Part shown: piece after piece, positions 1-41,273 of the stretch
Position numbering within the stretch: position 1 is the stretch's first letter
Layout of the letters: each line of letters opens with the position of its first letter
Assembly (NCBI RefSeq): GCF_017104565.1
Contig: NZ_JAAGPD010000045.1
Location: 27,304 to 91,303 of the forward strand
DNA: 64,000 nt
Reading direction: 5' to 3'
Origin: Paraburkholderia sp. Tr-20389
GTDB taxonomy: Bacteria; Pseudomonadota; Gammaproteobacteria; Burkholderiales; Burkholderiaceae
Program-made: the position numbers and the translations under genes
Notes under the pieces: model-generated
The model's database searches: none
What the model was told of the DNA's origin: nothing
The model's input: only the letters and a program-made list of their open reading frames with translations

Positions 1-110
1 TGTTAGCGGCTTTCTTTTGCCTACTTTTCTTTGCCGCTGCAAAGAAAAGTAGGTGCTGCCCCGCACAGGGGCGACGCCTGAACACCGACATGCAATCGCG
101 GATGCCAGCG
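1..110. repeat. right arm of a long palindromic repeat element, cut by the window edge
   Basis: This stretch matches, in the same orientation, the right arm of the elements at 14748-15403 and 40457-41107. It has a 15-bp perfect hairpin stem (20-34 with 39-53, loop CGCT), then the GCCCCGCACAGGGGC stem-loop at about 57-72, and ends with the shared terminal motif CGCGGATGCCAGCG at 97-110. The rest of the element lies outside the window. It sits 47 bases from the 3' end of glgB; bases 111-156 are a CCACACCCA-rich stretch with nothing else recognisable. Confidence 0.85.
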
Positions 111-14747: not shown

Positions 14748-15403
14748 ATCGCTGGCATCCGCGTTTTGGTGTTGGTCGTTCATGCGTTGCCCCTGTGCGG
14801 GGCGGCACCTACTTTTCTTTGCAGCGGCAAAGAAAAGTAGGCAAAAGAAAGCCGCTCACACCGCTAGCTTTTGTATTTGCCTGCGGGCCCCCAACGGGTC
14901 CCGCACTCCACACGGCAACACATTGTTTTGCGCCCGTTGCCAGCGCCTCGAACAGGCGCATCACCCACTCCAGTCACCCGCAGCCCAGCCAGCGGCAGCG
15001 ATCCGTCTGCGCCGCCCAGGTGGCAAACGGTGTGTAGGTTGTCGCACCCTATGCGTTCGCGCCCCTACGACACCGATCCGCTTTTCAGTCCGGAGTGGTG
15101 CACTTCCGTCGCGATGGCCTACACACCGTTTGCCACCTGGGCGGCGGTGGACTTTCGGTAACGCGATCCGTGACGTGGGAGTGTGAAGCGGGTGATGCGT
15201 GAGTTAGCACGCTGGCAACGGGCGCAAAACAATGTGTTGCCGTGTGGAGTGCGGGACCCGTTGGGGGCCCGCAGGCAACGACTAGCACTGGCGGTGTGAG
15301 CCCGCTTTCTTTGCTTACTTTCTTTGCGGCGGCAAAGAAAGTAAGTGCCGCCCCGCACAGGGGCAACGCATGAAGTACGAAGGCAAAACGCGGATGCCGA
15401 CGA
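14748..15403. repeat. long palindromic repeat element, copy 1
   Basis: An imperfect inverted repeat of about 656 bases. The outer ends are CGCTGGCATCCGCG (14750-14763) and its near complement ending at 15403. Moving in, both arms carry the GCCCCTGTGCGGGGC stem-loop, then a 14-15 bp hairpin (14808-14822 with 14827-14841; 15314-15327 with 15332-15345), a shared block with GGGCCCCCAACGGGTCCCGC, and a perfect 29-bp inner inverted repeat (15010-15038 with 15118-15146) around a 79-base centre. Short open frames cross it on both strands, but the indels between copies shift their frame, so I do not call genes. The preceding 14698-14747 is a GCTGCTTT low-complexity stretch. Confidence 0.9.
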
Positions 15404-15535
15404 CAAGCAAAGCAGACCGAAGAAGCACGACGCGAACGTAAGTGCCGCCCCGCACAGGGGCAACGCCTACGAACCGATTACAAACCGCGGATGCCAGCAG
15501 CGCAGCAAAGCAGACCGAAGAAGCACAACGCAAAC
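15342..15535. repeat. 97-bp tandem duplication at the right end of palindromic element copy 1
   Basis: Two consecutive units begin with TAAGTGCCGCCCCGCACAGG (at 15342 and 15439), share the CGCGGATGCC motif and end with AGCAAAGCAGACCGAAGAAG. The units differ mainly in the middle. The first unit overlaps the right end of the element, so an arm end was duplicated. The remainder to the next gene (15536-15643) is an A-rich CCAAAACCAA stretch with no gene seen. Confidence 0.85.
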
Positions 15536-40456: not shown

Positions 40457-41107
40457 CGCTGGCATCCGCGCTTTCGTAGTGGTTGTTCAGGCGTTGCCCC
40501 TGTGCGGGGCGGCACTTACTTTCTTTGCCGCCGCAAAGAAAGTAAGCAAAGAAAGCGGGCTCACACCGCCAGCCCGTGTTCTTGCCTGCGGGCCCCCAAC
40601 GGGTCCCGCACTCCACACGGCATCACGCTGATTTGCGCCCGTTGCCAGCGCCTTGAACAGACGCATCACCCACTCCAATCACCCGCAGGCAGCCCGCGGC
40701 AGCGACTCGTCTGCGCCGCCCAGGTGGCAAACGGTGTGTAGCTTGTCGCACCCTATGCGTTGACGATCCTACGACACCGATCCCGCTTTTAGTCCGGAGT
40801 GGTGCATTTCCGTCCAGACGGCCTACACACAGTTTGCCACCTGGGCGGCAGTCGAATTCTGGCAACGCGATCGATGACGCGGGAGTGTGAAGTGGGTGAT
40901 GCGTGCCTTAGCGCGTTGGCAACGCGCGAAAACGAGTGCGTTGCCGCGTGAAGCGTAAGAACTGTTGGGGGCCCGCAGGCAAGAACAAGGATTGGCGGTG
41001 TGAGCCCGCTTTCTTTGCTTACTTTCTTTGCGGCGGCAAAGAAAGTAAGTGCCGCCCCGCACAGGGGCAACGCATGAGCAACCACTACGAAAGCGCGGAT
41101 GCCAGCG
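40457..41107. repeat. long palindromic repeat element, copy 2
   Basis: A 651-base imperfect inverted repeat like copy 1. Ends: CGCTGGCATCCGCG (40457-40470) and its exact complement (41094-41107), extended inward by a further 20 or so matching bases. Arm hairpins: 40515-40528 with 40533-40546, and 41018-41031 with 41036-41049. Inner inverted repeat about 40714-40741 with 40823-40849, one mismatch. Short open frames across it differ from copy 1 by frame, so I do not call genes. It lies between the hydrolase stop (40379) and the GntR start; bases 41108-41273 hold the GntR promoter region (TATGAT at about 41226) and nothing else seen. Confidence 0.9.
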
Positions 41108-41273
41108 ACCACAAGGCGCTCGCCAGTAAAAAAAACCAGGATGGCGACTGCGTCGCAGACAAAAAAACCCGCACCCGCAGAACAAATAGGGTTTCCCCTC
41201 ATAACCAAAGCCGAAGGCAAATTTGTATGATGACCCTATCACATGGCAACTCGCGAAGCGAAAAAGCACACCC

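Follow-up and report, generated by a model that had tools for sequence, protein, structure and literature searches.

Long palindromes are an unstable kind of sequence. How can more than 100 of them, each 650 bp in length, be kept in one genome, and how does their conserved architecture survive complete replacement of the sequence? These puzzles are raised by an intergenic repeat in the window analysed here, a stretch of 64,000 nucleotides (C40:27304-91303; window base 1 is C40:27304) from a 9.0-Mb Paraburkholderia-type genome in 129 contigs, designated G000. A sequence-only reading of the window had described a large palindrome with no evident transposase, present at least three times and known to it by no name.

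Palindromic elements in the window and in other genomes

Both copies proposed by that reading are real, and the arm it had noticed at positions 1-110 is the end of a further full copy. The features of the window are the following:

1..110, + strand: right arm of copy 3; the full element, C40:26762-27413, crosses the window edge
14750..15402, + strand: copy 1, a class-A palindrome of about 650 bp whose right end motif is imperfect
14877..14945, + strand: copy 1, left half of perfect 69-bp inverted repeat
15010..15038, + strand: copy 1, left half of 29-bp central inverted repeat, read from sequence
15118..15146, - strand: copy 1, right half of 29-bp central inverted repeat, read from sequence
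15210..15278, - strand: copy 1, right half of perfect 69-bp inverted repeat
15434..15498 (C40:42737-42801), - strand: solo end unit of about 65 bp that follows copy 1 in tandem
40457..41107, + strand: copy 2, class-A palindromic element, 651 bp
40457..40470, + strand: copy 2, left end motif CGCTGGCATCCGCG
40491..40571, + strand: copy 2, left hairpin arm, the left half of a perfect 81-bp inverted repeat
40993..41073, - strand: copy 2, right hairpin arm, the right half of the perfect 81-bp inverted repeat
41094..41107, - strand: copy 2, right end motif, reverse complement
41108..41200, + strand: copy 2, outer flank, an A/C-rich, T-poor outward module with short stems GGCGCTCGCCAG and GGCGACTGCGTCGC

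Copy 1 aligns over 14750-15398, and copy 2 is 86.7% identical to it. The ends said to be shared are exact in copy 2; the right end of copy 1 reads GCGGATGCCGACG and is not an exact end motif. The perfect 29-bp central repeat described in copy 1 exists, and longer perfect inverted repeats (69 bp) are present as well. Extensive pairing of the arms, also proposed, is confirmed. Folded as single-stranded DNA, copies 1 and 2 reach -309.9 and -309.6 kcal/mol, against shuffle means of -137.5 and -135.6 (z = -30 and -48; 20 shuffles per copy), and copy 2 forms a single long imperfect stem. Palindromic folding of both copies is not due to chance. Copy 1 combines two arm types, a left hairpin of the CCTACTTTTCTTTG variant and a right one of the CTTACTTTCTTTG variant; such chimeric arms are a first hint of exchange.

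From the outside inwards, elements consist of the end motif CGCTGGCATCCGCG, a hypervariable stretch of 20 bp, a double hairpin and a long centre, followed by the mirror image. The conserved double hairpin is made up of GCCCCTGTGCGGGGC and a subsequent stem of CTTACTTTCTTTG type, with two variants known. Inverted ends are present in 74 full copies of G000, a sample chosen for full ends. The hypervariable stretches adjoin the end motifs on their inner side, at bp 15-34 and 618-637 of the element. Bp 15-34 are the part in which own arms most clearly match best (own arm against arm of another copy: 0.688 v 0.601 in G000, 0.677 v 0.622 in G001, 0.779 v 0.757 in G020). Apart from this stretch and, in G020, a slight excess at bp 121-170, no covariation between the arms was detected within copies, so the arms are not visibly converting each other. 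Mirrored positions do not covary within copies either, and the full-length stem is thus not maintained by compensatory change. Both intra-copy arm conversion and compensatory stem selection were set aside for want of signal beyond these two stretches.

A scan of reading frames in the 74 copies points to a non-coding repeat. Within the central 400 bp, each reading frame is interrupted in all but 5 or fewer of the 74; with no open frame common to the copies, a coding function was rejected. Flanks read outwards are A/C-rich, with 3-6% T over the first 40 bp, alike on both sides, and an outward module like that of copy 2 recurs beside other copies. Over the first 60 bp, the two flanks of a copy score 16.7 on average, against 13.4 for mismatched pairs; what they have in common are mainly general outward modules. 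Copy-specific inverted flanks were rejected, since no more than 3 of the 74 copies score above the 99th percentile obtained for mismatched pairs. A match to the Rfam family MIR918 (37.8 bits, cut-off 268) was taken as a chance match of a long hairpin.

Presence "at least three times" proved an understatement. An initial search of G000 scored 40 copies with 87-100% identity from 147 candidates. The end motif, allowing one mismatch, occurs 318 times in G000, against 7 for its reversed control. A core pattern found once per arm (at most 2 mismatches) gave 115 forward and 117 reverse matches, and none for the control, which corresponds to about 116 copies. The same count took in 20 genomes, 12 of which matched, and yielded about 116 copies in G020, 174 in G001, 180 in G077, 70 in G130, 12 in G108 and 4 in G115. 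Most genomes carrying class A thus bear a load of about 70-180 copies.

Relatives were searched for in 60 genomes including the own one; 32 matched, 30 of them in the same genus; among 24 genomes from other families, two (G039 and G056) gave weaker matches. Named relatives of the element come from 15 records, replicons of Paraburkholderia and Caballeronia. Among the 80 matches listed for the arm pattern, record titles are those of Paraburkholderia, Caballeronia or Burkholderia sp. only. The proposed lineage specificity holds for the centre; the hairpin arms recur across Paraburkholderia and Caballeronia.

The wider family was sampled by 41 elements, 34 with paired arms from 33 of the 80 listed loci and seven found earlier. 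They measure 437-738 bp from hairpin to hairpin. Median similarity of centres is 0.82 within species (71 pairs, of which 66 come from one strain, Ac-20365) and 0.55 between species (749 pairs), shuffled sequences giving about 0.60 with the lenient aligner used. Most centres are unrelated between species, with clusters among related ones. Centre palindromy is 0.65-0.78, against about 0.60 after shuffling, in 40 of 41 elements, the exception being BCC1885 (0.62). As centres are unrelated and yet palindromic, the architecture outlives the sequence. Two elements of BL9I2N2 have unrelated centres, so one genome can hold two types.

End-plus-hairpin units of about 65 bp also occur solo or in tandem beside full elements (G000:C128:140190-140469, G001:C2:1527983-1528147), the tandem units in C128 of G000 having a period of 72. 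The bare 14-bp end motif is repeated in tandem with a 30-bp period at G000:C41:59824-59927 and C18:132771-132844. At several listed loci an arm lies near the contig or locus edge, as if repeats break short-read assemblies. The phage collection contained no match to the element, and a phage link was dropped. No name for the element was found, in agreement with the sequence-only reading, and no description of such elements was recognised in titles and beginnings of abstracts. As far as the literature searched reaches, this family of large intergenic palindromes is undescribed.

Fixed sites and exchanged sequence

The comparison between three genomes was based on 158 full copies (G000, 74; G020, 48; G001, 36); incomplete copies were left out, among them 8 G000 entries that are partial or cut. 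G000 copies were found partly by similarity. To lessen similarity bias, 20 G020 copies were taken from stretches chosen by position (core-pattern list and a syntenic block). The nearest relative lies in the own genome for 157 of 158 copies, and within G020 for 19 of the 20 chosen by position.

Sites were regarded as shared when both flanks match, which was the case for 27 sites between G000 and G020, 11 between G000 and G001 and 8 between G001 and G020. Same-site identity of G000 and G020 copies is 0.8285, and that of shuffled partners 0.8277 +/- 0.0023 (p 0.33, n=27). The corresponding values for G001 and G020 are 0.7402 and 0.7433 (n=8); same-site copies of G000 and G001 are slightly closer than shuffled ones (0.7623 v 0.7571, p 0.016, n=11). 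At G000-G020 sites, 14 copies have the same orientation and 13 are inverted, and among the 19 shared sites involving G001, 4 are the same and 15 inverted (p 0.02). Paralogues are closer to each other than same-site orthologues, as is characteristic of concerted evolution. Comparison shows that copy sequences retain next to no memory of their site and that, between G000 and G020, either orientation is equally likely.

The copies are also mosaic. In G000, linkage disequilibrium (r2) is 0.52 at 1-5 bp, 0.14 at 30-60 bp and 0.03 at 60-120 bp; beyond 120 bp it amounts to 0.014-0.018, with 0.015 in permuted data. Nearly all pairs of sites more than 60 bp apart show four gametes. The decay is alike in G020 and G001, and it survives removal of sites near gaps. 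For 23 class-B copies of G115 (see below), r2 starts at 0.60 and is down to 0.067 at 60-120 bp; beyond 250 bp it stands at 0.047, with about 0.045 expected for a sample of this size. Linkage is near background by about 100 bp in all four genomes, which consequently carry recombinant copies, as a concerted repeat family does; this is not the outcome of a clonal transposition burst. G000 and G020 have 29 segregating sites in common, and at 28 of these both carry the same two alleles, so variants outlived the species split without staying at their own sites. In G020, nearby copies are more similar: identity is 0.892 for pairs closer than 15 kb (n=8) and 0.883 for those 15-50 kb apart (n=19), against 0.858-0.860 at greater distances.

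Large replicons of P. caribensis strains 852011 and MWAP64 were compared over 250 kb; copies with no flank pair passing the rule were left out (one in S1, two in S2, three in S3). Elements of four same-site pairs diverge by 6.65% (individually 4.3, 4.9, 6.4 and 11.2%), against 0.87% in their flanks. Non-element chunks of 650 bp have a median divergence of 0.77% and a 99th percentile of 5.16%, with 4 chunks at 4.2% or more (n=270 of 384; the rest did not map colinearly). Against a null that takes the variability of each site into account, three of the four pairs differ in patches (p <=0.0005); the fourth, most diverged pair is no patchier than site variability would make it (p 0.20). Four tracts were compared with the replicon of the other strain: three match some other locus there better than the same site (95.9 v 81.9, 93.0 v 82.2 and 90.9 v 87.6%), and one matches its own site better (87.6 v 86.1% elsewhere). 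No exact donor of the tracts was found in the one replicon per strain that was searched. Orientation is unchanged in the four strain pairs and at two sites matched with MBA4.

Elsewhere in MBA4 (NZ_CP012748:1313734-1317500), as compared with 852011 (NZ_CP015960:540758-544026), inter-element DNA appears inverted and one element reversed. This is what recombination between copies would give; flank matches are partial there.

Different centres at the same sites and the neighbouring genes

An 80-kb syntenic block contains four copies in G000 and the same four in G020. All four sites are filled in G115 with another centre (class B, about 530-570 bp). In G108, three sites of the block are colinear on both flanks; the body is lost at all three and end remnants are left. 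In two of these remnants parts of both ends survive, which looks like a deletion of the body. At C40:42053 the left flank of G108 differs too, about 4.7 kb of G000 having no colinear match, and the comparison is not clean. Of the four sites, G001 shares one; two others are without the element in that genome, and for the last it has no matching downstream gene. As for the copies in the window, the site of copy 1 is also filled in G020 (inverted) and G115 (class B centre), and the site of copy 2 carries class A in G020, class B in G115 and an end-motif remnant only in G108. Sites filled in one and empty in the other exist between G001 and G000 as well; those read have no clean joints.

Block identities are 92.4% for G000-G108, 92.2% for G020-G115 and 87.3-90.8% for other pairs, with G001 outside. 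Based on these pairings, which are pairwise identities and not a tree, class A is taken as ancestral; G115 would have replaced it and G108 lost it. Matches to the class-B pattern number 109 in G115, against none in 19 other genomes. Of 28 class-B copies, 21 occupy sites that are class A in the sampled G000, G020 or G001 copies; the remaining 7 have no counterpart in this sample. Class B resembles class A over about 107 bp at each end only and is itself a full-length palindrome (76% arm identity). Comparison of genomes thus shows copies that exchange without movement, different centres at the same sites, and loss.

Gene context was determined by our own simple codon-usage gene caller, which placed 133 of 136 copies of the three genomes between genes; the other 3, not between called genes within 1200 bp, were left out, as were single copies of G005 and G021. 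Convergent, tandem and divergent arrangements number 63, 60 and 10 for elements and 39, 75 and 39 for a background of neighbouring genes in nine stretches, some elements included (p ~1e-5). The convergent share is 35/73 in G000, 20/30 in G020 and 8/30 in G001; the excess stems from the former two and is not seen in G001 alone. The median distance from gene 3' end to element is 69 bp (188 distances). One element-free site of G001 (G001:C2:2063830-2064080), at which G000 has an element, holds an ordinary terminator-like hairpin (GGGCGCTGCGAAGCGCCCGTTTT).

Stem-plus-T signals are directed toward the element in 66 of 158 copies and away from it in 2 of 158, a contrast that is in part an effect of the T-poor outward strand. 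At gene 3' ends, elements and their T-rich entry flanks might conceivably act as two-way transcription barriers, a role that would explain persisting sites and avoided promoters. It would fit the position at gene ends, the inward stem-T runs and the hairpin site in G001.

Explanations and comparison with known systems

In our judgement, the best explanation, with a probability of roughly 0.8, would be a positionally fixed family of palindromes under rampant ectopic gene conversion. Comparative evidence that conversion is ongoing is strong, conversion being read from patterns and not watched.

The sequence-only reading had considered a MITE-like element, and one MITE trait, terminal inverted repeats without coding capacity, is indeed present. 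Species-specific bursts of such a non-autonomous element into conserved docking sites (e.g. solo end units), in either orientation, would produce shared sites, even orientation and species-specific copies; in addition, the 318 end motifs exceed two per full copy, G108 retains end units at emptied sites, and there are sites at which just one of two species has an element (G001 v G000). However, bursts copy whole elements, and linkage should then span 650 bp rather than be near background by about 100 bp. Sharing of both alleles at 28 of 29 sites variable in G000 and G020, and strain pairs differing by patches in three of four cases, also speak against them. Target-site duplications, which that reading proposed to look for, are absent: an adjacent direct repeat of at least 3 bases was found at none of the 158 copies (for k=2, 4 v 2.0 shuffled), and counts with 3 bases of slack stay within the shuffled range at every length tried. 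No associated transposase was found among Y1_Tnp, the sole family searched. With no duplication, with sites shared between species and with mosaic copies, a MITE-like nature is not supported, and we regard such bursts as improbable. If, on the other hand, these were conserved functional sites, serving as two-way terminators or structured RNA, likeness within a genome would reflect selection for a species optimum and not exchange. Enriched convergent and depleted divergent pairs are consistent with this, as are the strongly conserved arm hairpins and the inward stem-plus-T signals, the latter partly a composition effect. But selection leaves site memory intact at neutral positions and neither makes mosaics nor installs an unrelated centre, and G001 alone has no convergent excess. 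Selection may be the reason why sites are kept; as the source of the likeness it is distinctly improbable.

High-copy intergenic palindromes together with a Y1_Tnp match in the genome recall REP/REPIN-type repeats mobilised by RAYT (Y1 transposase), and a REP-like element had been proposed too. The RAYT-like match, the only one in the genome (G000:C12:60223-60513, in a 237-codon frame), is flanked neither by an element nor by the end motif: the 3.3-kb locus contains no end motif at up to 2 mismatches and two at 3. Since this locus is without repeats and the elements are far longer than REPs, mobilisation by RAYT was rejected as very unlikely. Chimeric and inverted copies could also arise by assembly or polishing, if short reads were shuffled between repeats. 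G000 consists of 129 contigs, and draft contigs start inside an element in G005 (C38:1-548) and G021 (C51:1-621). Nevertheless, mosaicism and shared sites in G020, G001 and G115 come from assemblies of 4-5 contigs, and mean divergence of about 15% between copies should be enough for unique read mapping. An artefact, which the sequence-only reading had named as grounds for abandoning its claim, is extremely unlikely. By the tests run, the elements are real and are neither MITEs nor REPINs.

Under conversion at fixed sites, exchange would most probably be ectopic homologous gene conversion, with the shared arms as guides. Each arm being the inverted repeat of the other, a copy could invert in place or convert in either direction; pairing in either direction, or arm-arm recombination, would invert it. 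Less certainly, the palindrome itself may start the event: folded at the replication fork into a hairpin or cruciform, it might stall the fork or bring about a break, with repair from another copy. In PMC3315005, hairpin intermediates and large rearrangements are described for a 246-bp interrupted palindrome in E. coli without SbcCD and RecA. The SbcD model TIGR00619 exceeds its cut-off in 1 of 16 genomes, which is not G000, and has sub-cut-off matches in the other 15. This scarcity removes the simplest nuclease as trigger, so that SbcCD cleavage was weakened as a candidate, and it may be why long palindromes are tolerated. The sole SbcD over the curated cut-off (G139:C107:7516-8325, 210 bits) belongs to a genome that nonetheless has about 118 class-A copies.

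It is possible, if somewhat doubtful, that we deal with a non-coding selfish family spreading by conversion, in which fixed-site palindromes provoke their own replacement and a new centre sweeps the genome. Class B in G115 would then be a gene-conversion sweep through more than 100 sites, resembling homing without a nuclease gene. Conversion in palindromic bacterial repeats has been a question since 1988, when a review of REP-type repeats by Higgins et al. carried the words "evolution by gene conversion?" in its title (as given in the reference list of PMC3116915), and in our judgement it is hard to demonstrate for very short repeats. The present elements are long, polymorphic, numerous and fixed, and therefore patches, possible donors, flips and family replacement can be read from ordinary genomes, even between strains.

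Known systems resemble this family in part. MITEs (e.g. Correia, ERIC, RU) are likewise short non-coding repeats with inverted ends; the elements described here differ in having no target-site duplication, sites common to species and palindromy over the whole length. Their end-plus-hairpin unit is weakly similar to Bp1_684 (Rfam RF02421), a predicted Burkholderia sRNA, with scores of 23-26 bits (best 26.3), under the cut-off of 44. They share palindromy with the long palindromes studied in E. coli, but are natural and multicopy, and reside in genomes of which 15 of 16 have SbcD under cut-off. REPs, BIMEs and REPINs are high-copy intergenic palindromes as well. A REP unit is tens of bp in length, whereas these elements measure about 440-740 bp from hairpin to hairpin (about 650 bp in G000), are composite, have a replaceable centre and showed no RAYT link; conversion among them is backed by mosaicism, site comparison and strain comparison. 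Finally, dispersed copies of multicopy rRNA operons are homogenised in each genome at fixed positions by concerted evolution. The palindromes are similarly homogenised within a genome at fixed positions, but unlike rRNA operons they are non-coding, number more than 100 copies with about 85% identity within a genome, are free in orientation and can have their centre replaced.
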